Program-made: the position numbers and the translations under genes
The notes under the pieces: generated by a model
The model's database searches: none
Seen by the model: only the letters and a program-made list of their open reading frames with translations
What the model was told of the DNA's origin: nothing
Part shown: positions 36,896 to 58,755 of the stretch, piece by piece
Numbering within the stretch: position 1 is the stretch's first letter
Layout of the letters: every line of letters begins with the position of its first letter
Assembly: GCA_963681505.1 (NCBI GenBank)
Contig: OY811972.1
Coordinates: 2,553,163 to 2,617,162, forward strand
Source of the DNA: Eunapius fragilis
Lineage: Eukaryota; Porifera; Demospongiae; Spongillida; Spongillidae
Length of the DNA stretch: 64,000 bases
Reading direction: 5' to 3'

Positions 36896-38030
36896 TCACC
36901 TTATCCAAGTGTTGTACAAAACGTTAGGTCGTGATGGAAGGGATGAGGTAGCAATGCCGCCATCTTCGTAATGGTCATGAGAGGGGCTTTCATCATTCAC
37001 TACTATGTTGCTAGTGGCAACAATATCATTACGAAGCGATATCAGAAGGCTCTTGATTCTCGTTCTGAAACGCTTGCTCACAATGATCACCACGGGGCTT
37101 GTAATTTGCACGTAAAAGAAGCAAGTAAAAGCAAAGGTTACAAGTGGCACATTTAACGTTATCGTTTTGGCAATAACTATTGAAGCCATCAGTATGCCGT
37201 GTAGAGCGCCAGTAATATTTGGTACAGCAAATAAGATGAACACACATGCATGCCATTGAATTGAGTGCCTTCAATTCTGAGTTCCAATCAATTGGAACGT
37301 CTTGGTAGTTGTGCTTCAGTGAGAGGTTACTTGCATACCGGCTGTTCTTTTTCATGTTATGCAACTGTCTGAAGATGTATGCGTAGTGGACCAGACCGAA
37401 AAGCAGACTGGATGCGGTTATAAAAATGAACATAACAGCGCTCACTTCATTGTAAATAGAAAACGTTCCCTTCAGCCATCTGCTTGGTGCATAGCAAGAT
37501 ATGACATCATCTGTCTCACCCACTATCTGTCCCCCTTGGAGCAGTCCCATAACACCTGCACCTACCGCAGCCATCCACACAATTCCTACCTCTATGTAGG
37601 TTCTCTTTGTGTATGGTTTCCACTCAAAGAAGTGAAGCACAGCTCTGTATCTCTCTCGACTGATGAAAGCTGGTATGAATATGTTTGGTAATGCAGCTAG
37701 ATATGACATGACTTGGTTTAATGTGCACATGGTCTGCCCAAAGACCCATCGTTGGGTTGCAGTTGTCACCATCAGAGTTAGTAATGGAAACAGGGACAGC
37801 AGATTGTTGACTGCCATGGAGCAGAGGTAGATGTTGATGTTGTTCACCACACCCATGCCCTTGAGAAGCACACAGATCAAGAGGAGATTGGAGACCAGTC
37901 CAACCAACAGCTCTACCACAATAATAGGAGTATAGATCACTGCCAAAGATGGTAGCAAATATCTGGCCGAGTGGTTTGAACCATTGGCTTCAGGACTTTT
38001 GTCAAAGAAACTGGTTGAATTTTCCATCAT
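36896..38030 (-). pseudogene. GPCR copy 1, frameshifted rhodopsin-like receptor
   Basis: Start at the MMENSTS methionines (ATG 38030). It aligns over its whole length with the intact copy at 40104-41258, but a 4-nt insertion beside GCATGCATG (about 37245-37256, in the TM6-TM7 region) shifts the frame. The first frame stops at 37029 and the correct C-terminal frame resumes to a stop at 36896. Features kept include TM1 asparagine in GLVSNLLLICVLL, the SRERYRAV motif after TM3 and a DVISCYAPSRW loop cysteine. It has a TATATATAAG box 31-40 nt before the ATG, as in copy 2. Confidence 0.85.
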
Positions 38031-38060
38031 CGATTGTGACACAACAGGATGTGTGTGCTC

Positions 38061-38070
38061 TTATATATAG
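38061..38070 (-). promoter_or_regulatory. TATA box of GPCR copy 1
   Basis: CTATATATAAGAG on the minus strand, about 31 nt before the first ATG, implies a very short 5' leader. Confidence 0.55.
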
Positions 38071-38748
38071 TGATATAGCTGGTTATTTCACAAGTGCATT
38101 TGTGCCATTACCAGAAATGTTGTGTAAAATCACCACCTCATGTCAGCCAGCAGTCACACAGTGACCCCCCCCCCCCCCTCGAAGTTCACTTGAAAACTAT
38201 ACCTAGAAAAAATCAATGTGCATAGCCTCGGTACCTAAGGTCTGCTCAAAGTCATTGATTGTATGCAAGCTAATCTGGCCAGGGATAAGTTGAATTGCTC
38301 TGTGCACATTTACAGCCTTGTTGCACGCGTGACTATGTACTTGAAGTACTGAGTATACTGAACCCTAACCATGGCTACCTTGTGACTTTGAATGACATCA
38401 TTGAGTGCACCTGGTGGCTCATGGAGCCTGAGGATGGCTAGCTGTCCCCCTCCCAGAGCCAAGACCCTGCTCACAGGATTGTAGTGTGTGGCTGCATGAT
38501 GTGAGGTGATGAGTATGTCACACCTCTCACACACCACGCATGAAGCTTTATATCACAGCTAACAACGTCCTTCATCCACTCCCTCTGTGGTCCAAACCAC
38601 ACCCTGAAGTAGATTTAATTGAAGGTGGTAACAGATTTAAAAGCTTTCTGAATTTTACTTATGAAAATGGATAATCAGACAATCCAGGCACAAAAACCAA
38701 ATAAATACCAAATTACAATGACACAGACCACTACAACATACAATGTTG

Positions 38749-39165
38749 CTATTGGTGCTCACTAAGGAACTGAACTATCAGCGGTTCAGAGCTCTTCCAG
38801 TTGCTAAGCAACACCCTCCTGTTGCTGCTGTCCATCACATACTGCTGTGATGCTCCCAGTGCCTTCTTCAGAGATGACATTTCCACCAGTGTTGACGCAC
38901 TGTTGGATTTGAGTTCAATAAATTCCTTTCCCACAACACCCGGGCAGAAGGCTGCAAACGCATTCTTCACCAGCGCTATAACGGAGTGTACCAGGGCTGG
39001 ATATTTGAGGCTCCTCTTATCCTGGGGCGACACGTTGAGGTGTAACTTGATTGAAGTCCTTCATCTCCAGGATGACGGATATGTCGTCGTCTGTCACCCA
39101 GAAAACTCCACAGGTCCAGAATTCACACTGCGGGCACAGCGGTCCACAGTCCTTGGCATCTGCTC
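38749..39165 (-). pseudogene. Duplicated 3' tail of the ROCO gene, copy 1 (broken)
   Basis: Corresponds to the last ~138 codons of the SH2-ankyrin-ROCO gene's final exon (DAKD.GPLCPQCEFW to the stop). An extra T near 39045 breaks the frame. It also lacks everything upstream, the homology ending near 39165 at a CCATTTCCAGGGTG-like sequence. Non-functional as a ROCO protein. Confidence 0.85.
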
Positions 39166-39332
39166 GTTGAAAGCACCCTGGAAATGGGAATATGAGAAGT
39201 GGCTCAACCAAGTATAACTACCAGGGGCTATGGGGGTCTGAGGTCCCATACCTCTTGTACTTGAGCCTTTTCTGCCTTGCTCTCGGGGGAGAGGCCCTTC
39301 TCTAGCTCTCTCTGGACCTGCCTGGCTGTTTC

Positions 39333-39543
39333 CATGTCTTCTATGGACATAAAGATGAGACAACCGGTGAGGTCTAAGCTGATGGAATCCAGTCAGAAGG
39401 CTGATACCAGCTGGGCCGACATAATGTCAGATAATGAGGAAGCTGAATATGGGAAAAGAAAAGAGCTAGAGAGCTCGGGAGATGAAGAAGAGGATAACCA
39501 GACCTCCCCCTCTAGAAAGAGGAGAGAAATCGGTATAAGCTAG
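39333..39543 (+). CDS. Small acidic reading frame, duplicated; function unknown
   Basis: A plus-strand frame containing MSSMDIKMRQPVRSK, TSWADIMSDNEE and ESSGDEEEDNQTSP. The second copy at 42647-42856 differs by only three residues. Composition resembles the start of some retrotransposon ORF1 proteins, but it is short and both copies come from a recent segmental duplication, so conservation is weak evidence of coding. Confidence 0.3.
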
Positions 39544-39736
39544 GCATATGCCAAAATCAATTAGACGACTGATTCATCTCTATGTCCATGCATAGATCAG
39601 CAAACCTTCATTTCCAGAGTATTTATTACCCAAGGAAGGAGAATACCCTCACTTTGATAGTGTTATCATATCCTGAATTTGTCCTATTCTAGAAACATGC
39701 ACTACTGCACGCACGACATCACCGCCCCACAAGAGG

Positions 39737-39759
39737 TGTGTGTGTGTGTGTGTGTGTGC

Positions 39760-39798
<39 letters not shown>

Positions 39799-39815
39799 TG
39801 TGTGTGTGGGTGTGC
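39737..39815. repeat. GT microsatellite
   Basis: (GT)n with a CGTATG interruption; the duplicated counterpart is at 43052-43105. Confidence 0.92.
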
Positions 39816-40103
39816 AGATGCTGGCACATCAGTTCTAATACAGGGGGTTAAATAATAATACATGCACACACACACATGCACACGTGTGCATGCTTAACGA
39901 AATAAATAGATCTGTATAATGGAAATTAATGTACTTTTCTAACCACCACCAATGTCATTGTAAAGCAATAATCAGTTATGAAAATTAGATGTATATGGCG
40001 TGTCAAACCCTCTTCCAGGTTCGATTGCTGTACTGGAATGTTTGTTAAAATAGGTCCAGGACGAATGAAGACTCAACACACTGGAATCCATTGTTGCCCT
40101 GAC

Positions 40104-41258
40104 CTATGTCAAAGCTGTGTCCTTCATCCAAGTGTTGTATAAAACTTTAGGTCGTGATGAGTTAGCAATGCCGCCATCTTCATGGTGATGGTGGTGAAAG
40201 GGCCTTCCATTCACAACTATGTCGCTAATGGTAACATGGGAGGCCAGAGGCGTCAGCAGTGATTTCAAAAGATCCTTGATTCTCGTTCTGAAACGCTTAC
40301 TCACAATGATCACCATGGGGCTTGTAATCTGCACGTAATAGATGCAAAGAATAGTTATGTGTACAAGTGGTACAGTTGCTTTCGTAAGCGTTGTCTTATT
40401 GGCAATAACTATTGAAGCCATCGATATGCCATATAGAGCGCCAGTAATATTTGGTACAGCAGACACGGTGAACATACATGCCATTGAATTAAGTGCCTTC
40501 AATTCTGAGTTCCAATCAATTGGAACGTCTTGGTAGTTGTGCCTCAGTGAGAGGTTACTGTCATACCGGCTGTTCTTTTTCATGTTATGCAACTGTCTGA
40601 AGATGTATACGTAGTGGACCAGACCGAAAAGCAGACTGGATGCGGTTATAAAAATGTACATAACAGCGCTCACGACATAGAAAATAGAAAACGTTCCCTT
40701 CAGCCATCTGCTTGGTGCATAGCAAGATATGACATCATCTGTCTCACCCACTATCTGTTCCCCTTGGAGCAGTCCCATAACACCTGCACCTACCGCAGCC
40801 ATCCAAACAATTCCTACCTCTATGTAGGTTCTCTTTGTGTATGGTTTCCACTCAAAGAAGTGAAGCACAGCTCTGTATCTCTCTCGACTGATGAAAGCTG
40901 GTATGAATATGTTTGGTAATGAAGTTAGATATAACATGACTTGGTTTAATGTGCACATGGTCTGCCCAAAGACCCATCGTTGGGTTGCAGTTGCCACCAT
41001 CAGAGTTAGTAACAGGAACAGGGACAGCAGATTGTTGACTGCCATGGAGCAGAGGTAGATGTTGATGTTGTTCACCCCACCCATGTCCTTGAGAAGCACA
41101 CAAATCAAGAGGAGATTGGAGATCAGTCCAACCAATAGCTCTACTGCAATAACGGGAGTATAGATCACTGCCAAAGATGGTAGCAGATATCCGGCCGAGT
41201 GATTTGAACCATTGGCTTCAGGACTTGTGTCAAAGGTGCTGGTAGAATCTTCCATCAT
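40104..41258 (-). CDS. Rhodopsin-like GPCR, intact copy of the cluster
   Basis: Intronless, 384 residues from MMEDSTSTFD. N-glycosylation sites (NGSNHS) precede seven hydrophobic segments: TM1 PVIAVELLVGLISNLLLICV with the class A asparagine, TM2 containing AVNNLL (asparagine where class A usually has aspartate), a conserved-position cysteine in GQTMCTLNQ, SRERYRAV (ERY at the end of TM3), a loop cysteine in DVISCYAPSRW, and TM7 ending TSPMVIIVSKRFR in place of NPxxY. The C-tail is His-rich. This fits a divergent class A receptor of a lineage-specific expansion; the ligand is unknown. It is the only one of the three tandem copies with an uninterrupted frame. Confidence 0.9.
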   Translation of the reverse strand: MMEDSTSTFDTSPEANGSNHSAGYLLPSLAVIYTPVIAVELLVGLISNLLLICVLLKDMGGVNNINIYLCSMAVNNLLSLFLLLTLMVATATQRWVFGQTMCTLNQVMLYLTSLPNIFIPAFISRERYRAVLHFFEWKPYTKRTYIEVGIVWMAAVGAGVMGLLQGEQIVGETDDVISCYAPSRWLKGTFSIFYVVSAVMYIFITASSLLFGLVHYVYIFRQLHNMKKNSRYDSNLSLRHNYQDVPIDWNSELKALNSMACMFTVSAVPNITGALYGISMASIVIANKTTLTKATVPLVHITILCIYYVQITSPMVIIVSKRFRTRIKDLLKSLLTPLASHVTISDIVVNGRPFHHHHHEDGGIANSSRPKVLYNTWMKDTALT

Positions 41259-41289
41259 TGATTGTGACACAACAGGATGTGTGTGCTCT

Positions 41290-41300
41290 TATATATAGTG
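41290..41300 (-). promoter_or_regulatory. TATA box of the intact GPCR gene
   Basis: TATATATAAG on the minus strand about 32-40 nt before ATG 41258. It is conserved in position with copy 1 (copy 3 has TATATACAAG). Confidence 0.55.
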
Positions 41301-41931
41301 ATATAGCTGGTTATTTCACAAGTGCATTTGTGTCATTACCAGAAATGTTGTGCAAAATCAATCACCATCTCGTGTCAGCCTGTAGTCACACAGTGACCCC
41401 CCCTGAAGTTCACTTGAAAACTACACCTAGAAAAAAAAATCGATGTGCATAATCTTGGTACCTGAGGTTTACTGAGAACTTGAATATAAAAGTTCCAAGT
41501 CATTGATTGTATGCAAGCTAATCTGGCCAGGGATAAGTTAAATTGCTCTGTGCACACTTACAGCCTTGTTGCACGCCGTGACTATGTACTTGTAGTACTG
41601 AGTATACTGAACCCTAACCATGGCTCCCTTGTAACGACTTTGAAAATTAATGACATCATTGGATGTGCCTGGTGGCTCATGGAGCCTGAGGATGGCTAGT
41701 TGTCCCCCTCCCTGAGCCAAGACCCTGCTCACAGGATTGCAGTGTGTGGCTGCATGATGTGGGGTGATGTACTAGTACATCAGACCTCTCAGACACCACA
41801 CATGCAACTTTATTACCACTCGATATGCAGGGCAAATGACCTCCTACAGCCACTCCCTCTGTGGTCCAAACCACACCCTGAAGTAGATTTAATTGAAGGT
41901 GGTAACAGATTAAAAAGGCCGGTTTCTGAAT

Positions 41932-41937
41932 TTTATT
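41932..41937 (-). terminator. AATAAA polyadenylation signal inherited with ROCO tail copy 2
   Basis: AATAAA on the minus strand about 110 nt past the stop of the ROCO tail fragment. It is identical in place to the signal of the parent gene, and mutated to AAGTAA in copy 1. Confidence 0.55.
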
Positions 41938-42047
41938 TATAAAAATGGATAATCAGATAATCCAGGCACAAAAACAAATAAATATAAACCTAACCAAATT
42001 ACAATGACACAGACCATTACAACATACAATGTTGCTATTGGTGCTCA

Positions 42048-42447
42048 CTAATGGAACTGAACTATCAGCGGTTCAGAGCTCTTCCAGTTGCTAAGCAACA
42101 CCCTCCTGTTGCTGCTGTCCATCACATACTGCTGTGATGCTCCCAGTGCCTTCTTCAGAGATGACATTTCCACCAGTGTTGACGCACTGTTGGATTTGAG
42201 TTCGATAAATTCCTTTCCCACAACACCTGGGCAGAAGGCTGCAAACGCATTCTTCACCAGCGCTATAACGGAGCGTACCAGGGCTGGATACTTGAGGCTC
42301 CTCTTATCCTGGGGCGACACGTTGAGGTGTAACTGATTGAAGTCCTTCATCTCCAGGGTGACGGATATGTCGTCGTCTGTCACCCAGAAAACTCCACTGG
42401 TCCAGAATTCACACTGTGGGCACAGCGGTCCACAGTCCTTGGCATCT
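42048..42447 (-). pseudogene. Duplicated 3' tail of the ROCO gene, copy 2
   Basis: Open over its length and nearly identical to the ROCO C-terminus (NVSPQDKRSLKYPALVRSVI onward), ending VQFH plus stop. The upstream exon sequence is replaced by a stretch ending CCCGTTTCCAGGGTGC, which looks like a splice acceptor. It may be part of a chimeric transcript but has no recognised upstream exon in phase. Confidence 0.75.
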
Positions 42448-42646
42448 GCTCGTGGAAAGCACCCTGGAAACGGGAACATGAGAAGTGGCTCAACCAAGTA
42501 TAACTACCTGGGTCTATGGGGGTCTGAGGTCCCATACCTCTTGTACTTGGGCCTTTTTCTGCCTTGCTCTCCTTTATAGAGGGCTGGTGTTGGTCTGAGG
42601 GAGAGGCCCTTCTCAAGCTATCTCTGGACCTTGCCTGGCTGTTTCC

Positions 42647-42856
42647 ATGTCTTCTATGGACATAAAGATGAGACAACCAGTGAGGTCTAAGCTGATGGAA
42701 TCCAGTCAGAAGGCTGATACCAGCTGGGCCGACATAATGTCAGATAATGAGGAAGCTGAATATGGGAAAAGAAAAGAGCTAGAGAGCTCGGGAGATGAAG
42801 AGGAGGATAACCAGACCTTCCCCTTTAGAAAGAGGAGAGAAATCGGTACAAGCTAG
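42647..42856 (+). CDS. Small acidic reading frame, second copy
   Basis: Counterpart of the frame at 39333-39543 with three substitutions. The same caveats apply. Confidence 0.28.
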   Translation: MSSMDIKMRQPVRSKLMESSQKADTSWADIMSDNEEAEYGKRKELESSGDEEEDNQTFPFRKRREIGTS

Positions 42857-43052
42857 GCATATGCCAAAATCAATTAGATGACTGATTGATTCATTTCTAT
42901 GTCCATGCATAGATCAGCAAACCTTCATTTCCAGAGTATTTATTACCCAATGAGGGAGAATCCCCTCACTTTGATAGTGTTATCGTATCCTGAATGTGTC
43001 CTATTCTAGAAACATGCACTACTGCACGCACGACATCACCACTCCACAGGAG

Positions 43053-43083
<31 letters not shown>

Positions 43084-43396
43084 TGTGTGTGTGTGTGGGT
43101 GGGTGGGTGTGCAGATGCTGGCACATCAGTTCTAATACAAGGGGTTAAATAATAATACATGCACACACACATGCGCACGTGTGCATGCTTAATGAAATAA
43201 AAAGACCTGTATAATAGAATACTTTTCTAACCATAACCAATGTCACTGTAAAGCAATAATCAGTTATGATCTGAAAATTAGATGTATATGGCATGTCAAA
43301 CCCTCTTCCAGGTTCAATTGCTGTACTGGAATGTTTGTTAAAATAGGTCCAGGACGAATGAAGACTCAACTCACTGGAATCCATTGTTGCCCTGAC

Positions 43397-44548
43397 CTAT
43401 GTCAAAGCTGTGTCCTTCATCCAAGTGTTGTATAAAACTTTACGTCGTGATGAGTTAGCAATGCCGCCATCTTCATGGTGATGGTGAAAGGGCCTTCTAT
43501 TCACAACTATGTCGCCAATGGTAACATGGGAGGCCAGAGGCGTCAGCAGTGATTTCAAAAGATCCTTGATTCTCGTTCTGAAACGCTTACTCACAATGAT
43601 CACCATGGGGCTTGTAATCTGCACATAATAGATGCAAAGAATAGTTATGTGTACAAGTGGCACAGTTGCTTTCGTAAGCGTTATCTTATTGGCAATAACT
43701 ATTGAAGCCATCGATATGTTATATAGAGCGCCACTAATATTTGGTACAGTAGACACGGTGAACATACATGCCATTGAATTAAGTGCCCTCAATTCTGAGT
43801 TCCAATCAATTGGAATGTCTTGGTAGTTGTGCTTCAGTGAGAGGTTACTGTCATACCGGCTGTTCTTTTTCATGTTATGCAACTGTCTGAAGATGTATAC
43901 GTAGTGGACTATACCGAAAAGCAGACTGGATGCGGTTATAAAAATGAATATAACAGCGCTCACGACATAGTAAATAGAAAACGTTCCCTTCAGCCATCTG
44001 CTTGGTGCATAGCAAGATATGACATCATCTGTCTCACCCACTATCTGTCCCCCTTGGAGCAGTCCCATAACACCTGCACCTACTGCTATCATCCACATCA
44101 CACCTACCTCTATGTAGGTTCTCTTTGTGTATGGTTTCCACTCAAAGAAGTGAAGCACAGCTCTGTATCTCTCTCGACTGATGAAAGCTGGTAGGAATAT
44201 GTTTGGTACTGAAGTTAGATATAACATGACTTGGTTAACTGTGCACATGGTCTGCCCGAAGACCTATCGTTGGGTTGCAGTTGTCACCATCAGAGTTAGC
44301 AGCAGGAACAAGGACAGCAGATTGTTGACTGCCATGGAGCAGAGGTAGATGCTGATGTTGTTTACCACACCCATGTCCTTGAGAAGCACACAAATCAAGA
44401 GGAGATTGGAGATCAGTCCAACCAACAGCTCTACCGCAATAATGGGAGTATAGATCACTGCCAAAGATGGTAGCAGATATCCGGCCGATTGATTTGAACC
44501 ATTGGCTTCAGGACTTGTATCAAAGGAGCTGGTTGAATTTTCCATCAT
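43397..44548 (-). pseudogene. GPCR copy 3, nonsense codon at the TM2-TM3 loop
   Basis: Same frame throughout from ATG 44548 to the stop at 43397, but the tryptophan codon of TQRWVFGQ is TAG (44266-44264). All seven TM regions are otherwise conserved. Copy 3 also has a C in its TATA box. Readthrough or an assembly error cannot be excluded. Confidence 0.85.
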
Positions 44549-45213
44549 CGATTGTGACACAACAGGATGTGTGTGCTCTTGTATATAGTGATATAGCTGG
44601 TTATTTCACAAGTGGATTTGCGTCATTACCAGAAATGTTGTGCAAAATCGCCATCTCGTGTCAGCTTGCAGTCACACAGCACCCCCCACCCACCCCCCAC
44701 CACCCCTGAAGTTCACTTGAAAACTATACCGTAGAAAAAAAATCAATGTGCATAGCCTCGGTACCTAAGGTCTGCTCAAATTCATTGATTGTATGCAAGC
44801 TAATCTGGCCAGGGATAAGTTGAATTGCTCCGTGCACATTTACAGCCTTGTTGCACGCCGTGACTATGTACTTGTATTACTGAGTATACTGAACCCTAAC
44901 CATGGCTTCCTTGTAACAACTTTGAAAATTAATGACATCATTGGATGCACCTGGTGGCTCTTGGAGCCTGAGGATGGCTAGCTGTCCCCCTCCCTGAGCC
45001 AAGACCCTGCTCACAGGATTGCAGTGTGTGGCTGCATGATGTGGGGTGATGTACTAGTACATCAGACCTCTCAGACACCACACATGCAACTTTATTACCA
45101 CTCGATATGCAGGGCAAATGACCTCCTCCAGCCACTCCCTCTGTGGTCCAAACCACACCCTGAAGTAGATTTAATTGCTGGTGGTAACAGATTAAAAAGG
45201 CCGGTTTCTGAAT

Positions 45214-45219
45214 TTTATT
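45214..45219 (-). terminator. AATAAA polyadenylation signal of the SH2-ankyrin-ROCO gene
   Basis: AATAAA on the minus strand, 100 nt past the stop codon at 45319. Confidence 0.7.
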
Positions 45220-45318
45220 TATAAAAATGGATAATCAGATAATCCAGGCACAAAAACAAATAAATATAAACCTAACCAAATTAGAATGACACAGACCACT
45301 ATACAACATACAATGTTG

Positions 45319-48300
45319 CTATTGGTGCTCACTAATGAACTGAACTATCAGCGGTTCAGAGCTCTTCCAGTTGCTAAGCAACACCCTCCTGTTGCTGCTG
45401 TCCATCACATACTGCTGTGATGCTCCCAGTGCCTTCTTCAGAGATGACATTTCCACCAGTGTTGACGCACTGTTGGATTTGAGTTCGATAAATTCCTTTC
45501 CCACAACACCTGGGCAGAAGGCTGCAAACGCATTCTTCACCAGCGCTATAACGGAGCGTACCAGGGCTGGATACTTGAGGCTCCTCTTATCCTGGGGCGA
45601 CACGTTGAGGTGTAACTGATTGAAGTCCTTCATCTCCAGGATGACGGATATGTCGTCGTCTGTCACCCAGAAAACTCCACTGGTCCAGAATTCACACTGC
45701 GGGCACAGCGGTCCAGAGTCCTTGGCATCTGCAACCCTCAGGAGCGAGAACTGTCGCACTAACCTCAAGACAAGCACACAGTAGAAGTACCTGGTGTAGA
45801 ACTGGGTACCCGTCAACATGCGCCAGCTGAAGCTGTCGTCGCCAGCGACTACAACGGACGGTTTCTCCTCGTTAATGAGGTCAGGGAAGAACAGCACTGC
45901 GGCGGGATGACTTCCAGTGTGCTGAGGCTCCACGTTGTGGATGAGGAGGCAGAGCTCCAGTTGGGTCATGAACTCCAAGATGACATCGCTGCTTAGGGTG
46001 GGGAAGTGCTTCTGCAGCACCTGGAGCGTCACGATCCCCCTGCTGGTGTTGGGAGGGGAGAAAACTGTCCCCACAACCTTCTCCAGTAACGTATCCCTCT
46101 GCACTACCACGATGCTGTTGAAGGGTACGTCGCTGTTTTCCAGGAATACGATCAAACCTTTGCGGGACAGGGTCCTGAGCATCGGTATGATGCGATGGGA
46201 GTCAACCACAGCCTGGTTGTCATTCATCATGTGTAGGTGGAGGTACGAGACAGTCAGGGAGAACCCTCCTCCCTCCACAGAGGAGGTTGGGGAGGAGGAA
46301 GAGGAGGAGACCTTCTTCAGGAAGCTGTACAGGGAGGCACACTTGCTGGGAAGGAAGGAGCTCTGGTCCGCGACAGACTCGACCGTCTTCTGCAGGAGGG
46401 AGACAAACTTGCCCACCTCGTCGCTGCTCTGGGTGGTGAAGAGACCCTCAAACCTCTCCCTCTTGAGAGCGCACTGGGCTATCTGCTTCACAAAGGTGAG
46501 CGCGTTGCCAAACAGCTTGCCCTTGAGCTGGTCACCATGGGTACCCACAACGAGGACTGGGGACCTCTTTGGACACCGGGAGCAGACGCAGTCGATGAAG
46601 GTCCCCCAGTAGAAGAGGTTATGCGTGATATCTTCGTTGGATTCGGTCATGTCCAGAGCGATGACAAAGGTGGAAGGGTTGTGCGAGGAGATGGATTGGA
46701 GGTAGGCGTACTGCAGGGAGTGGCAGCGCTCGTCCCCCGAGAGGTCGTAGACCAGTGTGTCGCCCCCGCCCCCCGCAATCAACGGCACGGTGTGACAGAC
46801 GATCCCGACCGTTGGGTGCTTTGCCGCGCTGCTGCTGCTGGTGCCTCCAAACTTCATCTTTGAACGGATTAGGAGTGCACGTAATCGGAGACAATTGACA
46901 TCAACAATGTAGGTGGTCACATGATTTGGTGATTACATGATTAAATGGTTAAATGATTATGTGGTCACAAGATTAGGTCGTGACATGATTATGTGATCAC
47001 ATGATTAGGTAGTGACACGATTATGTGATCACATGATTAGGTAGTGACAATTGACATCAACAATGTAGGTGGTCACATGATTTGGTGATTACATGATTAA
47101 ATGGTTAAATGATAATGTGGTCACAAGATTAGGTCGTGACATGATTATGTGATCACATGATTAGGTAGTGACATGATTATGTGATCACATGATTAGGTAG
47201 TGACAATTGACATCAACAATGTAGGTGGTCACATGATTTGGTGATTACATGATTAAATGGTTAAATGATAATGTGGTCACAAGATTAGGTCGTGACATGA
47301 TTATGTCATCACATGATTAGGTAGTGACATGATTATGTGATCACATGATTAGGTAGTGACAATTGACATCAACAATGTAGGTGGTCACATGATTTGGTGA
47401 TTACATGATTAAATGGTTAAATGATTATGTGGTCACAAGATTAGGTAGTGACATGATTATGTGATCACATGATTAGGTAGTGACAATTGACATCAACAAT
47501 GCAGGTGGTCACATGATTTGGTGATTACATGATTACATGGTTAAATGATAATGTGGTCACAAGATTAGGTCGTGACATGATTATGTGATCACATGATTAG
47601 GTAGTGACATGATTATGTGATCACATGATTAGGTAGTGACAATTGACATCAACAATGTAGGTGGTCACATGATTTGGTGATTACATGATTAAATGGTTAA
47701 ATGATAATGTGGTCACAAGATTAGGTCGTGACATGATTATGTCATCACATGATTAGGTAGTGACATGATTATGTGATCACATGATTAGGTAGTGACAATT
47801 GACATCAACAATGTAGGTGGTCACATGATTTGGTGATTACATGATTAAATGGTTAAATGATAATGTGGTCACAAGATTAGGTCGTGACATGATTATGTCA
47901 TCACATGATTAGGTAGTGACATGATTATGTGATCACATGATTAGGTAGTGACAATTGACATCAACAATGTAGGTGGTCACATGATTTGGTGATTACATGA
48001 TTAAATGGTAAATGATTATGTGGTCACAAGATTAGGTAGTGACATGATTATGTGATCACATGATTAGGTAGTGACAATTGACATCAACAATGCAGGTGGT
48101 CACATGATTTGGTGATTACATGATTACATGGTTAAATGATTATGTGGTCACAAGATTAGGTCGTGACATGATTATGTGATCACATGATTAGGTAGTGACA
48201 TGATTATGTGATCACATGATTAGGTAGTGACATGATTATGTGATCACATGATTAGGTAGTGACAATTGACATCAACAATGTAGGTGGTCACATGATTTGG

Positions 48301-51300
48301 TGATTACATGATTACATGGTTAAATGATAATGTGGTCACAAGATTAGGTCGTGACATGATTATGTGATCACATGATTAGGTAGTGACATGATTATGTGAT
48401 CACATGATTAGGTAGTGACAATTGACATCAACAATGTAGGTGGTCACATGATTTGGTGATTACATGATTAAATGGTTAAATGATTATGTGGTCACAAGAT
48501 TAGGTCGTGACATGATTATGTCATCACATGATTAGGTAGTGACATGATTATGTGATCACATGATTAGGTAGTGACAATTGACATCAACAATGTAGGTGGT
48601 CACATGATTTGGTGATTACATGATTAAATGGTTAAATGATTATGTGGTCACAAGATTAGGTCGTGACATGATTATGTCATCACATGATTAGGTAGTGACA
48701 TGATTATGTGATCACATGATTAGGTAGTGACAATTGACATCAACAATGTAGGTGGTCACATGATTTGGTGATTACATGATTAAATGGTTAAATGATAATG
48801 TGGTCACAAGATTAGGTCGTGACATGATTATGTCATCACATGATTAGGTAGTGACATGATTATGTGATCACATGATTAGGTAGTGACAATTGACATCAAC
48901 AATGTAGGTGGTCACATGATTTGGTGATTACATGATTACATGGTTAAATGATAATGTGGTCACAAGATTAGGTCGTGACATGATTATGTCATCACATGAT
49001 TAGGTAGTGACATGATTATGTGATCACATGATTAGGTAGTGACAATTGACATCAACAATGTAGGTGGTCACATGATTTCGTGATTACATGATTAAATGGT
49101 TAAATGATTATGTGGTCACAAGATTAGGTAGTGACATGATTATGTGATCACATGATTAGGTAGTGACATGATTATGTGATCACATGATTAGGTAGTGACA
49201 ATTGACATCAACAATGCAGGTGGTCACATGATTTGGTGATTACATGATTACATGGTTAAATGATTATGTGGTCACAAGATTAGGTCGTGACATGATTATG
49301 TCATCACATGATTAGGTAGTGACATGATTATGTGGTCACATGATTAGGTAGTGACAATTGACATCAACAATGTAGGTGGTCACATGATTTGGTGATTACA
49401 TGATTACATGGTTAAATGATTATGTGGTCACAAGATTAGGTCGTGACATGATTATGTCATCACATGATTAGGTAGTGACATGATTATGTGATCACATGAT
49501 TAGGTAGTGACAATTGACATCAACAATGTAGGTGGTCACATGATTTGGTGATTACATGATTACATGGTTAAATGATTATGTGGTCACAAGATTAGGTCGT
49601 GACATGATTATGTGATCACATGATTAGGTAGTGACAATTGACAACAATGTAGGTGGTCACATGATTTGGTGATTACATGATTACATGGTTAAATGATTAT
49701 GTGGTCACAAGATTAGGTCGTGACATGATTATGTGATCACATGATTAGGTAGTGACATGATTATGTGATCACATGATTAGGTAGTGGCATGTCACAAGAT
49801 TATGTGATCACATAACCTTGTGACCACATTGTGCTGCTGATTTAGAACATATTGGTCAGTGCCATTATTTGATGAACCCTCTGCTCATCCTAATGCAAGA
49901 CATGATGTAATGCAACTGATAACACGATGATTAGACCTTATAGGACTATCTTCCTCCCCTTTGCACGACTATCCTCCTCCTCCCCATCCCATGATGCCCA
50001 CAGGGTAACCTACGTGTAAATAACTCACATACCATAACTTTCAGAAGAGTGGTCTTTGGAGCAATAATGTACTGCAATAAGAATCACAAAACACATAACA
50101 CAAGTCTAACTTTAAAATTCCACCATTGATGGTTTCTGGTTGCTAAGGTACACAGAACCATTTCAACATACATTGCCAGCCCTTTCATTAACCACTCCCC
50201 CTACATGCACGCACATGTAACTGATCCCTACGTGCACACACACACATCTACCTGGGCTAGTGTGCTCTTTCCAGACCCTGTGTTACCACAGAGGACCACT
50301 CTGCTATACTCTCGTGACGATGACTTGCACTTCTTGAGCCACTCCACCACCGCCTTCTTGTCTCCCTCTGCAGCGACCGTCTCGGGGGTCATTCCCTTAT
50401 TGTTGCACACCTTCACGTCCACGTCTGGTACGGTCAGCAGCTCCTGAACGCAAGTCATGTGACCAGCGCGAGCTGCACAGTGCAAGGGAGTGTCCCCATC
50501 CTATGAGAAGGGGGGGGGGGGGGGGGGTAGGGGGGTGTGAACAGCTTATACTTGAGACACAACTCAAAGACGTTGCCATCAGTGTAAATGGTTATGGGTT
50601 GTGAAATCATTAAAAATGTGAACCGCGACTAGTGACGCTCCCGACAAACGGACAGCGTAGACAGTAGTAGAAATTGAACGATGAGTTAAAAGGAATCGTT
50701 TTGCGCTAGTCGGACTCCACGAAAACGTATGATTTTAGAGAACTAAAATACGAGTAGCCCACCCTCGTACCCGCTCCTATCGTTCTCCAGGTTCGTATAA
50801 CTCTGCGATGGAATCTATTTCAAATGATGCCGTTTTGTACCAAAGGATGTGTAATGATTCGGCGTTTTATTTTCACCGGTCAGCAGTGAAAGAGATTCTC
50901 TAGCAGTGTGCATGGAATTATTTTCGCTGCTAATCAAATAGATCATTGTTACTATGACTACTGGTTTTAAACGCTTGACATAACCGACTTACGCAAAATC
51001 AAATACGTCCGTAAAAAAGTGGGTTTGATAGCAACGCGTACCTAGCAACCAATAGTAATGACCGCTTGCCCACACAAATGTACACAACAATGTGTACTTA
51101 GCAACCACAAGCCATGTACAAGAGTCATGTGCAGTAACTGCAGTATTCATTCTCATAGTACAGTCCTCCTGGTAGTTGTGACAACAATAAAATCAATATT
51201 ACTACACATGAAGTGTTTGTATTGTGCGGGCATGTTATATGGGTTGCGTAGTAACCGTATGTTAAAAAAAACCTTACTTTTAGAACAAACTTATGTTGAC

Positions 51301-52985
51301 TTCTTACAATAGAATCAGCCAGTGATTAACTAACTAGACTGCACCCCGTGATTTTTCACGGGGTGCAGTCTAGTTAGTTATAATAGTCATTCTGTGTTTA
51401 GTCACAGCCAGAGATCTATACATGATCTCTGTCACAACAAAAGAATAGAACCTCTAGTAACAATTATCAGCAGCTTACAAGGCAGAGCCCACACTCGTGA
51501 TGAAGAGAACACCAAAACAAAGTGAGCTGATGTAAGCATAAGCTGTGGTAAACATTATGTGATGTAAGAATAAGCTGTGGTAAACATCACGTGATGTAAG
51601 CATAAACTGAGTTAAACATTATGTGATGTAAGCATAAGCTGTGGTAAACATCACATGATGTAAGCATAAGCTGTGGTAAACATTATGTGATGTAAGCATA
51701 AGCTGAGGTAAACATTATGTGATGTAAGCATAAGCTGAGGTAAACATCACATGATGTAAGCATAAGCTGTGGTAAACATCACATGATGTAAGCATAAGCT
51801 GTGGTAAACATCACATGATGTAAGCATAAGCTGTGGTAAACATAACGAGCTTACGTTATCCATTATAACTCCCACTTTTCAGCACCTTTCAGTATTCATA
51901 GTACAACAGATAACTTTAGAAAAACGTTTTCTAACGAGGAAAGTTGGTGGGATATATGAAGGCAAAGGCAAAGGTGGTGTAAAAAGGAAGGGAACAAGAA
52001 AAAGGATACAAAAAAATCTTATATTTGCACTTCTTTGGCTCTGTTGCATTCACATGTGCTAAATATAGGATTTTTCTTGTTAGTATTGTATCTTGTGTAG
52101 TGCTTAGCAAGTGGACATTTAGTGACCTGCATAATGTCATGAGTATTGTATGCATTGATTAAATACATTAAATACAACATGTACACACACACACACATAC
52201 ACACATGCACGCACATACACACAACACAGGCACACACACATGCACGCACACACACACAGGCACACACACATACATTGTTCTCTACAGTTGGGTCAGCTCC
52301 ACTGGTCAATAGAAGCCTCACGATATCACACACACCACTTGCACATGCCAGGTGAAGTGGAGTTGATCCATCCTGTGACCAAACAGGTGGAAATTGGCAC
52401 ATCAATGGCTCCCCATTCTCTGATATCAAGCCACACCTACTTTGCTCTGGGGGTTCAGCATGGCTCCATTTTCCACTAACAGTTTGGCTACATCAACCTG
52501 TCCCTCCTTGCAAGACCTGTGGAGGGGTGTATGTCCCCCCTGAGAGAGGGAGAGTGAAGGACCAAGGGGGATGACAACTGCTCTCTGCGGCCATTTTAAA
52601 CACCTCTTGTGATGACCACACTAAAACACGTACAAAGACACCACCTTCACGTGCCTGTGCACACCCACACACATGCACACCCACACACATGAACACCCAC
52701 ACACATGAACACCCACACACATGAACACCCACACACATGAACACCCACACACATGAACACCCACACACATGAACACCCACACACATGCACACCCACACAC
52801 ATGCACACCCACACACAATGACATACATATACATGGCGTATGTACATACATGAAGTGTACCCAAGAACCCACATACCCACCCACAACAAACTCATCCACC
52901 CAAAACGTACATAGAATTTACAGTAATACTAGGCCCTAATGCACATCAACTAGATGGCACACCAATAGCAAAATAAGAATAATTA

Positions 52986-53020
<35 letters not shown>

Positions 53021-53664
53021 CACACACAGTACACACACACAGACACACGTACACACACAGACACACACACACACGTACACACACACACACAGACACACAC
53101 ACACTACATTCCATTGCAGTTTTGGTTATCGTCTCATCAATATTTACTAAACCAATTGCATAGTGAAAGTACTAGTTTTAACAACCCAAACCTCCTTAGA
53201 ATGGGTCTGGTCCATTTGACTTTTAATTTAGAAGTAACTTAATTCAGTTATTCCCAGTGACCTGTAAATTAATTGCATGAACAGTCACCATATAGATCTC
53301 CTCATGACTTGGTCACATGACATGATAATACACATGGTTAGGTCAAACTGATCATACGCACATCAGCAAGTGCCTTATTGGTCACATGACTTGCACACAC
53401 CACTCAATGATGACATGATAAGCACACAGGGGGGTCACATACTCCATCCTCCATGTTGGGATATGCTCCACTGTATAGCAGACTCTCAATAACCTGGGGG
53501 TGTCCCTTTGATGATGCCTGGTGAAGCCCTGATTGGCCAGCCTGTTATAGGGGAGACCATGGAGGTGAGTGTGTAGGCATCACATACATACATACATACA
53601 TACATACATACATACATACATACATACATACATACATACATACATACATACATACATACATACA

Positions 53665-53698
<34 letters not shown>

Positions 53699-53804
53699 CA
53701 TGCATACATACATACATGCATACATACATACATACATACATACATACATACATACATGCATGCATGCATGCATGCATGCATACATACATACATACATACA
53801 TACA

Positions 53805-53838
<34 letters not shown>

Positions 53839-54076
53839 CATGCATACATACATGCATACATACATACATGCATGCATACATACATACATACATACATACA
53901 TACATGCATACATACATGCATACATACATACATGCATGCATACATACATACATACATACATACATACATACATACATGCATACATACATACATGCATGCA
54001 TACATACATACATACATACATGCATGCATACATGCATACATATGTACATACATGCATGCATACATACATACATACA

Positions 54077-54108
<32 letters not shown>

Positions 54109-56296
54109 CATGTATACATGCATACATGCATATATACACACATGTAAGTTTAAACTAGCAAACAAGACAACACATATACACACACACCCTGCACGTTCAC
54201 TTACACACATACCACAACACACAACACACAACACACACACACACACCATACACACATAACATACGTGTAAATATGGGACAGTTTCCGCGAAAATGTCCTA
54301 TGTTTTATAACATTATAACTATAAAAATGCTCTGCGCGTGAATACATATAAATAATCCTGCTCGCCTAGCTGCGGCCGCATCTCCTATATTCCAAGTCTG
54401 CCTAGCGTCATGCATGCTCAGTAACGCTCTCGATGATACGCATACATGCATATTAAAAAATAACATTCAGTGCTGTGCCATGGGTGGGGGGGGGCTAGGG
54501 GTGCCATGGGGGGGGCTAGGGGTGCCATGAGGGGGGGGGGGCTAGGGGTGCCATGGGGTGGGGCTAGGGGAGGACAAATAATTCATTAAGACTCATTGAT
54601 ATGGAATGGAGTGTCCCGGTTTCGAACAAAGAATCCAAGCTAAATGGCGCGAAACTAGCGGGAAATGTGCGGGAACTTTGAAAGCGAATATCTTATCACC
54701 AGTTGAAGTAAAAATTAACGAACAGGACATTTAAGTACCTCAAGAACTTCTGTAACTGGAAACCGAATTTGAGGCAATGCCGACACTCCTGCAGGGAAAT
54801 ACTCGGGTTTTGAACCCCTGGAGGTAAGACCTCTAGCATTTTCCCCAGGAAGTGGAGCTAAGAGACAATATCCATAGAGAGATGGTGTGGCATCATGTGG
54901 TGAAAATAGAAGTCAACAGCATTCACCGTTCGGACGCTACGATGATTCACGCGCAGAGTATTTTTATACATTTTCACGGAAACTGTCCCATATCACTGGC
55001 GGACGGAGGGGGGGGGGGTTGGGGGGTTGCAACCCTCCCCTTTCCTCCTATTACATAATACGCAAAATGCGGCTTAAGTAAAAAAAACTCGTAATTTTTT
55101 CATGCATTTTAGCACACCGAATTAACGTTTACAAAAGCTTCTCCCCCTATTGGTGACCCCCCCTCCACTACAACCCCCCCTTTCTTTAAATCCTGCGTCC
55201 GCCACTGCATATATAAATATGCACTGACTGCTCTTACATATGCAGTTGTATTGACCACAAGGTCTAGGCACATGACCACCAAATATAAGGCAATCCAGCC
55301 ATACCCTGAGCCAAAAATAAAATACTTACAGAATCTGTTGCATTCACATCCACCACACCCATCCTCAGGAAGGTGTTGACACCTTCATTGTTGCCAAGGC
55401 GACAAGCTTCAAGGAACTGTAGAACCAGAGCAGTGATGGAAGGAGAAGGGGAGGGAGAGGGTAGGGAAGGGGAGGTGGGAAAGGGGATAAGAGAGTGAGG
55501 GGAGGAGGGAAGGGGATAAGGGAGAGAGGGAGAGGAGGGGAAGGGGGTAGGAGTGAAGGTTACAAACATGCTACTGTACCTTGAACTTTTCATCAACTAT
55601 TTCCTTCTTGGGTGGTAATGGTGGTGGTAGTACAGCTCCACTGGGCTTAGAGATAGCCTCACCCGCAGGGTGGACCAGTGCAACCCCACTGGGCTTAGAG
55701 ACAGCCTCACCAGCAGGGTGGACCAGTGCAACCCCACTGGGCTTAGAGACAGACTCACCCGTAGGGTGGACCAGTACAACCCCACTGGGCTTAGAGATAG
55801 CCTCACCAGCAGGGTGGACCAGTGTGTGGACAAGCCCCGCACCAGTGCTCTGGTAGTATATGACAAGGTCATCGAGAGTGGCAAAAGTAGAGGCTTGGCC
55901 CTGCTGTTTGACCTATTGGGGGGGGGGGGGGGGGAAGGGAGGGAGGGAAGGAGGGAGGGAGAGAGGGAGGAGGGAGGGAGGAAGGAGGAGGGAGGGAGGG
56001 GGGAGGGAGGGGGAGGGAGGGAGGGGGGAGGGAGGGGGAGGGAGGGGGAGGGAGGGGGAGTGAGGGAGGGGGAGGGAGGGAGGGGGAGGGAGGGAGGGAG
56101 GAGGGAGGGGGAGGAGATCTAAATAATCAGGTACACACCTAAGTTGTTTGCCTGCACCAACACAAATACTAATAATCTCCACATGGGTTGAAAATTAATC
56201 ATACCCTCTATGTCATCAGCTTCAGCCAGATATATGCGATCTAACCATAAAATGCTAACACACTTACATTTCAAAATTAGGTTACAAGGAGGCTAT

Positions 56297-56329
<33 letters not shown>

Positions 56330-57385
56330 AGGGTTGTAAAAACACCCATATATAGTAAGAAATCGATCACACATCTCACACACACTACACACACACACTA
56401 CACACATCACACATACACTACACATACACACTACATACATCACACACACACTACACACATCTCACACACACACACTACACACATCTCACACACACACACA
56501 CTACACACATCACACACACACAGGTACCTTTATGTAAAATCTGTTCTCATTAAACAGTATGCGATAGTGATATACATGTTTCTGGTAGCTAGGAAGGAGA
56601 AGGAAAGGAGAGGGGAGGATGAAAAAAGGGATTGAAATTAGCTCAAAACTAATAGCAAGTAAATGCATGCATTCAATACAACCAGTGGTGTTACCAGCAC
56701 ACCACACTGTAAGAGGTGTTACCAGCACACCACACTTGTAAGAGGTGTCACCAGCACACTATAATGTAAGAGGTGTCACCAGCACACCATAATGTAAGTG
56801 GTGTCACCAGCACACCATAATGTAAGAGGTGTCACCAGCACACCATAATGTAAGTGGTGTTACCAGCACACCATAATGTAAGTGGTGTTACCAACACATC
56901 ACAACTGTAAGTGGTGATACCAACACATCACAACTGTAAGTGGTGCTATGAGCACACCATAATGTAAGTGGTGCTACAACTGCTAGGAGTTGCGAAATCC
57001 CGAGGAGTACGGCTCACCCTATATGGCCAACACTGTAAAACGCTTCGGCCTAATTCACGCAAGTTAGCCATATGAGCTGGAGGTATTGGTAAAAGCAGCC
57101 AACTACTAGTAAGCCTCTAATAAACCCGCTGCGTCCACGCCACGTATACAGCTGCTGCAACAACCAAACTGCACGCGGTGCACATTACGTAATGACCAGT
57201 TTGGTTAGCAGGTACATGTGCCGTTGAGCCTGGCCCTTAACTCACACAATGGAAAGCGCGTAACCTCCAGTGTTGCTCCCTCGAACGAGAAACGTTCCGT
57301 CCATTTTGTCTTGTAGGAGCTTTTCTGCCTCTGGCCTATCGGAGAGCGGGAACATCCAGGGACGCCCCGAAGATTCCTCTGCCAT
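45319..57385 (-). CDS. SH2 - ankyrin - Roc GTPase - COR protein (nine exons)
   Basis: Minus-strand exons: 57385-57246, 56588-56528, 55912-55580, 55416-55330, 53541-53443, 52539-52441, 52372-52274, 50500-50252, 46857-45319. All are GT-AG, phases match, 2706 nt, 901 residues. SH2 at about 10-95: W10, the FLVRGSN phosphotyrosine pocket, KHVYHYRIL, LDDLVIYYQ. A linker follows with four or five copies of VLVHPAGEAISKPSG and a PPPLPPKK SH3-ligand-like motif. Ankyrin repeats at about 179-360 come from one 29-codon exon, three 33-codon exons and part of the 83-codon exon. Roc: P-loop GNTGSGKS 378-385, switch II DLSG 427-430, THGD 495-498. COR-like region to the C-terminus. No kinase or death domain is visible. 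The SH2 should read phosphotyrosine and the Roc-COR should bind GTP and dimerise, as known for those families; the combination is my inference from phase-perfect splicing. Confidence 0.88.
46893..49795. repeat. Higher-order ~157-bp minisatellite in the intron splitting the Roc domain
   Basis: About nineteen units, each starting ACAATTGACATCAACAATG and containing one to three copies of a 31-bp subunit with the perfect palindrome ATGTGATCACAT. The array starts 36 bases upstream (gene sense) of the last exon's acceptor and covers most of the 3.4-kb intron between the P-loop exon and the rest of Roc-COR. Units differ in subunit number (about 124, 157 and 186 bp) and by point changes such as ATGTCATCACAT. 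Confidence 0.95.
50501..51326. other. ROCO intron 7, first part: transposon-leader-like sequence
   Basis: A G/C run (50511-50536) abuts the exon 8 acceptor. Around 50600-50850, weak similarity to the leader of the 19.6-kb transposon family is visible (GTATAACTCTGCG, CGTTTTG blocks). No exon is seen. Confidence 0.35.
51327..51380. repeat. Perfect 24-bp stem hairpin
   Basis: AACTAACTAGACTGCACCCC plus GTG pairs perfectly with its complement across a six-base loop (ATTTTT). It is intronic to the ROCO gene. It could be a small-RNA hairpin or a solo MITE end. Confidence 0.8.
51515..51845. repeat. About 31-bp minisatellite in ROCO intron 7
   Basis: About ten units of GATGTAAGCATAAGCTGTGG plus TAAACATCACAT, with ATTATGT alternating for ATCACAT. 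Confidence 0.93.
51921..52097. mobile_element. Foldback MITE, copy 4 (degraded)
   Basis: The left outer arm (CTAACGAGGAAAGTTGGTGG, GGTGGTGTAAAAAGGAAGGG) matches the family. The right outer arm is lost. The inner arms near the loop still pair imperfectly (TATATTTGCAC with GTGCTAAATATA). Confidence 0.65.
52665..52815. repeat. 16-bp minisatellite CACCCACACACATGAA
   Basis: About nine units in a ROCO intron, followed at 52985-53105 by a CA microsatellite. Confidence 0.92.
53583..54138. repeat. CATA tetranucleotide array with CATG variants
   Basis: About 140 tetranucleotide units with blocks of CATGCATG. It directly abuts the acceptor region of the 53443-53541 ankyrin exon. The long open frames through it are artefacts. 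Confidence 0.95.
54271..54993. mobile_element. TIR element, ATATGGGACAGTTTCCG ends
   Basis: The 26-bp ends ATATGGGACAGTTTCCGYGA plus AAATGT are inverted and identical except at one position. It is about 720 bp with no transposase. An internal tandem repeat of GGGGGCTAGGGGTGCCATG lies at 54478-54570. It belongs to the same end family as 22941-23179. Confidence 0.8.
54994..55207. mobile_element. hAT-like MITE, GGCGGACG ends
   Basis: The left end is CACTGGCGGACGG; the right end reverse-complements to CAGTGGCGGACGCAGG. G/C-rich runs lie inside both ends. It immediately follows the TIR element with no intervening base. Confidence 0.65.
55435..55560. repeat. GGGAGGGGAAGG purine tract
   Basis: G/A-rich on plus. 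In gene sense it is a C/T tract filling most of the small intron before the first ankyrin exon. Confidence 0.9.
55640..55830 (-). repeat. 45-bp coding minisatellite in the SH2-ankyrin linker
   Basis: Four to five units encode the 15-residue motif VLVHPAGEAISKPSG in frame inside exon 3 of the ROCO gene. Units differ by few bases, so the number may vary between individuals. Confidence 0.92.
55917..56118. repeat. G-run and GGGAGGGAGGGGGA purine tract
   Basis: A G homopolymer (about 55917-55934) is followed by about 180 bases of G and A. In gene sense it lies as C/T just upstream of the exon 3 acceptor. Confidence 0.92.
56688..56975. repeat. 28-bp minisatellite in ROCO intron 1
   Basis: About ten units of GGTGTCACCAGCACACCATA plus ATGTAAGA, with TTACC for TCACC variants. 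Confidence 0.93.
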
Positions 57386-57671: not shown

Positions 57672-58472
57672 TTATTCAATGTTCTTTTTAGCAACCACCA
57701 TCACAATGTTGTCTTTATAGTTGACCGTTGCTTCATTATCCTCCACATACGGGAAGACGTGCACTATCGTAAACCCCTCGGCTTTGACAGCATCGATGAT
57801 GCTCGGCATCTTCAGGCTGAGCTCCTTGTCGTACACCACGTCGCCCACGCGATAGCACGTGCTGCACTTGGCGTCTTCCGTTTCGTAACTCATTTCGACG
57901 TGCAGGTGACCTCCAGCCTTCACGAGGCCCGACAACTTCCTAACGGCCTCTCCGAAGGACCCTTCAGACGTGCACACGCAATCCAATACCCCCGTGCAGA
58001 CGACATAGTCGTACGGGCCAACGTACTCCGGGGGAAGAACACGCTCCGCAGTAATGTCGCAATGCACCACAGCCTTCACCACTTCCCTCATGCGTCTCTC
58101 TCTCGCCTCTACAGTTTCTCCGCAGTTTTCGAGTTCCAAGCAGTGGCTCACGTGCCTTCGCCAGGAGAACGCGGAGGGGTCACCTCCAAGCCACCGCTCT
58201 ACTTCGGCCACGTTGCTCCGCGCGTAGTCCGAGTGCACGTATTCCCTGGCCTTCTGCGCAGCGTACAGGAGGGGAAGCAGGTCTGGGCCCCCTCCGAAGT
58301 TCAGCACAGATAATGTGTTGTCCGGAAATTGCGAGAGTATACGGACCCACTCTCCGAGGGAGGGGCTGACGGCTGATAGTCCAAAATACCTCTCAAGGTA
58401 ATACCTTGGGTCAAACTGGTTGTAATAACCATCTTCCTCGCCTTTCAAACGAGCTCCTTGCTGCACAGCCAT
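57672..58472 (-). CDS. NNMT/PNMT/TEMT-family N-methyltransferase
   Basis: Intronless, 266 residues from MAVQQGARLKGE. It has the family's opening YYNQFDPRYYLERYFG, the SAM-binding loop in VLNFGGGPDLLPLLYA (usual form D.G.GP), SDYARSNVAEVERWLGGDPSAFSWRRHV (the SDY..N..E..WL..... AFDW signature), an acidic CDIT strand, and YDYVVCTGVLDCVC for the post-II loop. This family transfers a methyl group from S-adenosylmethionine to amine nitrogens (nicotinamide, phenylethanolamine, indolethylamine). The substrate here cannot be read from the sequence. Length matches vertebrate NNMT (264) closely. The usual aspartate of motif I is replaced by asparagine-phenylalanine, which is unusual but retains the glycines. 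Confidence 0.9.
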   Translation of the reverse strand: MAVQQGARLKGEEDGYYNQFDPRYYLERYFGLSAVSPSLGEWVRILSQFPDNTLSVLNFGGGPDLLPLLYAAQKAREYVHSDYARSNVAEVERWLGGDPSAFSWRRHVSHCLELENCGETVEARERRMREVVKAVVHCDITAERVLPPEYVGPYDYVVCTGVLDCVCTSEGSFGEAVRKLSGLVKAGGHLHVEMSYETEDAKCSTCYRVGDVVYDKELSLKMPSIIDAVKAEGFTIVHVFPYVEDNEATVNYKDNIVMVVAKKNIE

Positions 58473-58755
58473 CGTCCTTGGCGCAAGCAGTTGAAGAAGT
58501 GTGTGGCTCGCGTCCAATTTACGGCTTCCTAGCAACAAGCTTTGTACCAGAACTTACTATATTATCTTTGTACAGAGACAATAAAAGAACCAAGTTCAAC
58601 TTCTCAAATGGTACTCTTGTAAAGTCATTGCACTGCCTCTATTACAATATGGGGTTGAGGCATAATCCGCCGCGAAAAGGAACCTGGAAGGAGCATGCAT
58701 CAAAGTTGACGCGTACAATTAAAATTTACGCGTAATTGGAAATTCAGGCCACTGC

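Follow-up and report, generated by a model that had tools for sequence, protein, structure and literature searches.

The window analysed here is a stretch of 64,000 nucleotides (nt) from contig OY811972.1 of the sponge Eunapius fragilis, and our subject is a gene on its minus strand whose predicted product combines an SH2 domain, ankyrin repeats and a Roc-COR module. Spliced in phase, nine exons running from 57385 down to 45319 give 2706 nt, which encode 901 amino acids and a stop codon; the exon coordinates sum to the length given in a preliminary description of this DNA. All eight introns are bounded by GT and AG, the exon 1/2 junction is in phase 2 and every other junction is in phase 0. 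Judged by the SH2 profile, exon 1 (57246..57385) holds the start codon and the N-terminal half of the SH2 domain with FLVRGS, and exon 2 (56528..56588) its middle with HYRI. Exon 3 (55580..55912) supplies the C-terminal end, followed by a 16-residue tandem-repeat linker and PPPLPPKK. The first ankyrin repeat, which is partial, lies in exon 4 (55330..55416), while exons 5 (53443..53541), 6 (52441..52539) and 7 (52274..52372) each encode a single 33-amino-acid repeat. Exon 8 (50252..50500) carries the last repeats and the Roc P-loop GNTGSGKST, as placed by paralogues and by alignment with the Ephydatia muelleri protein P0009. Reading from 46857, exon 9 (45319..46857) encodes the Roc switch, DLSG, THGD, COR and the stop codon. 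An in-frame TAA stands 18 nt upstream of the ATG.

A further exon candidate of 39 nt (50033..50071, minus strand) has GT/AG boundaries and is in phase. When included, it adds 13 residues between the P-loop and the switch, and the Roc score is 21.3 bits versus 27.8 bits without it. It is probably unused, and we prefer the nine-exon model, which is probably correct in omitting it.

The domain content was examined with Pfam. An SH2 domain with an intact FLVR motif had been proposed, and the SH2 profile indeed matches residues 10-87 at full length (1-77 of 77; E 9.2e-16, 58.2 bits), with FLVRGS read directly in the sequence. It is the only SH2 stretch in the nine-exon product, and exon 1 alone is also matched in a whole-genome search (E 2.0e-6). 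The ankyrin repeats are equally clear (Ank_2, E 6.3e-50, best stretch residues 213-304). The Roc GTPase, described earlier by its P-loop, DxxG and THxD motifs, is recovered over residues 373-498 (profile 1-119 of 119; E 3.2e-6, 27.8 bits), and GNTGSGKST, DLSG and THGD can be read in it. The proposed COR region called for evidence beyond Pfam. No COR match was given by Pfam for the ten-exon model (E <= 1), exon 9 alone (E <= 1) or the nine-exon product (E <= 0.01); it is the relatives and the predicted fold that point to COR, with a fold match over model residues 201-511 of exon 9 (about 46257-45325). This places COR directly after Roc, as in ROCO proteins. Neither a kinase nor a Death domain was matched in the Pfam scans of the ten-exon and nine-exon products.

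The ankyrin-Roc-COR part belongs to a large family. At least 84 genome matches to exon 9 were found at E <= 0.001. Leaving aside the partial copies in the window itself, the best of the matches listed show 31-35% identity; the genome-match counts for exon 8, exon 9 and COR-A are lower bounds. A profile search for relatives gave 302 proteins, 120 of them listed, several named Ephydatia muelleri. Closer relatives of exon 9 (P0001-P0003; 65, 60 and 58% identical) end without the C-terminal extension seen in P0009. In 22 relatives, picked from the 120 as ncbi or eukprot entries, Pfam (E <= 0.01) found Roc in 11, Ank in 10, COR-B in 7, COR-A in 4, Death in 2 and SH2 in none, counts that may be lowered by partial gene models and divergent domains. 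The SH2 family PF00017 is absent from the precomputed domains of all 120 listed relatives. The Ephydatia muelleri members (EMCRGX_G009014, which is P0009, EMCRGX_G006605, which is P0013, and others) likewise combine ankyrin repeats with Roc and COR, and the scans matched no kinase in them; unlike the window gene, none of the 22 relatives has SH2, whereas two have Death.

In this sponge family, as seen in the present genome, an ankyrin/P-loop exon precedes a single Roc-COR exon. The window gene has the same layout and, going by its sequence, is an outlying member. The preliminary description had implied that ankyrin repeats with Roc-COR and no kinase are unusual. This does not hold, as the family is large both here and in Ephydatia muelleri, and ANK-ROCO is also named for the alga Gonium (PMC11378527). 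Since the ankyrin-Roc-COR scaffold is common in the lineage, the new part is the SH2 domain alone, one domain apparently gained by one member. The domain identities, the family membership of the ankyrin-Roc-COR part and, at the sensitivity used, the lack of a detected SH2 near any other member in this genome come directly from the computation. COR-A matches cluster on contigs C1 (0-1.6 Mb, 14 rows) and C2 (7.8-10.3 Mb, 23 rows), mostly in long open frames; most of the C2 rows fall below the family cut-off.

We suggest, with a probability of roughly three in four, that the nine exons form a single protein-coding gene, a member of the kinase-less ankyrin-Roc-COR family that acquired an N-terminal SH2 domain. 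Three joins bear on this. Exons 1-3 are spanned by the SH2 profile at full length. The join between the P-loop exon and the Roc-COR exon is firm. It raises the Roc score from 13.1 bits (exon 9 alone) to 27.8 bits, and P0009 holds both parts in a single chain, its residues 56-144 aligning to exon 8 and residue 144 corresponding to the last codon of that exon. For neighbour counts we used 82 of the 84 exon-9-like matches (six with internal stops), leaving out two partial tandem copies in the window, and those 95 of 150 listed exon-8-like matches that reach query residue 82 or 83 of 83; this extent itself supports a shared exon-8 end. An exon-8-like match lies upstream on the same strand within 20 kb at 71 of the 82 (window gene included), downstream at two and on the opposite strand at none.

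The join of SH2 exon 3 to ankyrin exon 4 is the weak point of the gene model. A GT donor closes exon 3 in phase 0, and exon 4 begins 163 nt later, also in phase 0, inside an ankyrin repeat and behind a pyrimidine-rich acceptor. From these splice signals and the phase we infer that SH2 and ankyrin-Roc-COR share a transcript. Several points weigh against this reading. No transcript or orthologue stands behind the exon-3/4 join, SH2 is absent from the 22 annotated relatives scanned, and a protein search with the SH2 region gave 84 candidates, none at E <= 0.001. Upstream of exon 4, its frame stays open as far as a stop at 55599 and contains two ATGs, at 55593 and 55569, so that an unspliced separate start is conceivable. 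Elsewhere in the gene, Roc exceeds its cut-off (27) by just 0.8 bits; the pyrimidine tract at the last acceptor, beside a 2.9-kb minisatellite, is weak, and exon 9 starts with ATG. The structure model of exon 9 is of low confidence (mean predicted local distance difference test score, pLDDT, 53), and its residues 141-272, which cover the start of the COR match, have pLDDT <50.

The exons could instead be divided between two adjacent genes, with exons 1-3 encoding a small SH2 adaptor and exons 4-9 forming an ankyrin-Roc-COR gene like its many paralogues. The ATGs upstream of exon 4 raise the standing of this alternative and lower our confidence in a single gene. The family members without SH2 also fit it: SH2 was detected within 40 kb at only one of the 82 exon-9-like loci, the window's own, by a six-frame search that may miss intron-split SH2 domains. 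When exon 3 is read through its donor, a stop follows two codons later. Nevertheless, we consider two genes unlikely. Exon 4 begins in the middle of a repeat and in the same phase in which exon 3 ends, translation from the upstream ATGs would put a low-complexity Pro/Ser-rich leader in front, and no AATAAA or ATTAAA is present on the coding strand between 57385 and 53228. A decaying gene copy or an assembly artefact, to which exon-9 3'-end pieces with one-base insertions in an adjacent tandem duplication and a degenerate copy of exons 6-8 on another contig might point, is very improbable against nine open exons in phase, an intact 512-amino-acid last exon that aligns end to end with P0001-P0003, retained P-loop, DLSG, THGD and FLVR, and an assembly of 24 contigs for 219 Mb.

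For the SH2 domain of the favoured single gene, a genome search at E <= 0.01 returned the three window pieces and seven matches elsewhere, the best at C9:171371 (47%); six of the seven lie in open frames of 392-495 residues. Kinase pieces occur in four of five such SH2 loci with more than one kinase segment (L001, L002, L003 and L005). In the genome search with the SH2 profile, all 82 candidates were scored. FLVRGS and HYRI are present, and so is the alpha-A Arg, by eye against the other SH2 domains of the genome. We take the FLVR Arg, HYRI and alpha-A Arg to have their usual roles here, and the domain likely binds phosphotyrosine. Its identity is 31% to the first SH2 of a SHARK-like gene on contig C15, which we identified visually from its matches to SH2, ankyrin and kinase, and 43% to another SH2 of the genome, on C9; it does not look derived from the SHARK-like gene.

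Known families suggest how the protein might work. The SH2 domain would recruit the protein to activated receptors or Src-type substrates by binding their phosphotyrosine, the ankyrin repeats would bind a partner, and Roc-COR would cycle between GTP and GDP with a change in dimer state, as for bacterial Roco. Since the model has no kinase or death domain, we propose a phosphotyrosine-recruited, nucleotide-dependent scaffold. Direct coupling of tyrosine phosphorylation to a Roc switch is a reasonable expectation from the binding residues that are kept.

SHARK and HTK16 carry a tyrosine kinase and share SH2 and ankyrin repeats with the window gene, but have no Roc-COR. Their ankyrin repeats sit between two SH2 domains (PMC9486129). 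In the window protein, Pfam matched neither a second SH2 nor a kinase. DAPK1 (ROCO group 3) has Roc-COR and ankyrin repeats in common with the window gene. In DAPK1, however, a kinase precedes Roc-COR and a death domain is present (PMC6337361), neither of which is found in the window protein. LRRK1 and LRRK2 share the Roc-COR fold and ankyrin repeats, but have leucine-rich repeats, a C-terminal kinase and WD40 (PMC6337361), and no SH2. The same source describes three groups of ROCO proteins, and the term SH2 is absent from its available passages.

ROCO domain shuffling as such is already documented in other invertebrates, where, as in the window gene, Roc-COR is joined to signalling domains in one lineage. 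Sea anemone NG3 proteins combine Roc-COR with a kinase (Pfam Pkinase_Tyr or Pkinase), SH3, death and TIR (PMC5094078), and Aplysia has TLR/TIR proteins with ROCO (PMC9334734); the term SH2 is absent from the available main texts of both. In sponges, TRADD-N proteins have expanded and SH2 is present in some of them; COR-bearing AP-GTPase proteins are described there as well (PMC8195603). Nothing joining SH2 to Roc-COR appears in the available passages of PMC4104024, PMC2927912, PMC9486129, PMC9138534 and PMC13279596. The earlier statement that no described class joins SH2, ankyrin, Roc and COR without a kinase thus agrees with our open-access literature searches, within which no SH2-Roc-COR protein was found.

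A candidate SH2-tyrosine kinase-Roc-COR gene is seen at L022 and L021 (contig C22, about 3251.7-3240.0 kb, minus strand) and L040. Its SH2 is CSK-like (59.7 bits for a segment assembled by eye), and the last of its tyrosine-kinase exons scores 45 bits. A 169-nt kinase exon, a 54-nt exon and a large exon connect in phase, so that the SH2 and kinase parts are followed by a P-loop (GPEGSGKTS) and COR-A (46.2 bits); the P-loop and THSD were read by eye. Tentatively, and with more doubt than confidence, we raise the idea that gene fusion in sponges linked tyrosine phosphorylation to Roc-COR switches at least twice, in the window gene without a kinase and on C22 with a tyrosine kinase, which would make a class of phosphotyrosine-gated GTPases that is not known from other lineages. 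This idea is weakened because no Roc profile match was found in the C22 exon at E <= 0.01. On contig C8, an SH2 match at 6518312 (+) precedes a COR-A match at 6553623 (+) by 35 kb.

ROCO proteins such as LRRK2 and DAPK1 are disease-relevant switches with poorly understood inputs. A natural protein in which a phosphotyrosine reader is attached to Roc-COR and no kinase interferes would make it possible to test how recruitment affects the GTPase. If true, an early animal lineage mixed tyrosine signalling with Roc switches. The finding would gain weight if transcripts and P0001-type relatives were shown to contain the SH2, or in combination with the candidate on C22.

Other features of the locus are as follows. 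Most of intron 8 is a minisatellite with a period of about 156 bp (46910..49786, minus strand), which ends about 50 nt from the last acceptor. AATAAA at 45219 (45214..45219, minus strand), 100 nt beyond the stop codon, is a candidate polyadenylation signal; within the gene, AATAAA or ATTAAA occurs on the coding strand only at 53227 and 50871. The exon-3 linker is an in-frame 48-nt tandem repeat of 3.9 copies (55638-55824), and similar repeats occur in many open frames genome-wide. A tandem duplication spans 36899-45732 (36899-42449 versus 40121-45732, 91.5% identical). It yields three stretches resembling G-protein-coupled receptors, one open throughout (40104-41288) and the other two split between frames, and each has the 3'-terminal part of the Roc-COR exon upstream of it on the minus strand. 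The two extra exon-9 pieces match the intact exon at 406/409 and 407/414 nt, above the identity of the whole block, and each has a one-base insertion. The degenerate copy of exons 6-8 (L041, C4:3464500-3469500) is 73-75% identical in DNA, with stops in the exon-8 match. Just upstream of the gene, on the same strand, a methyltransferase of the NNMT/PNMT/TEMT family is encoded in one open frame (57672-58553; 121.5 bits).
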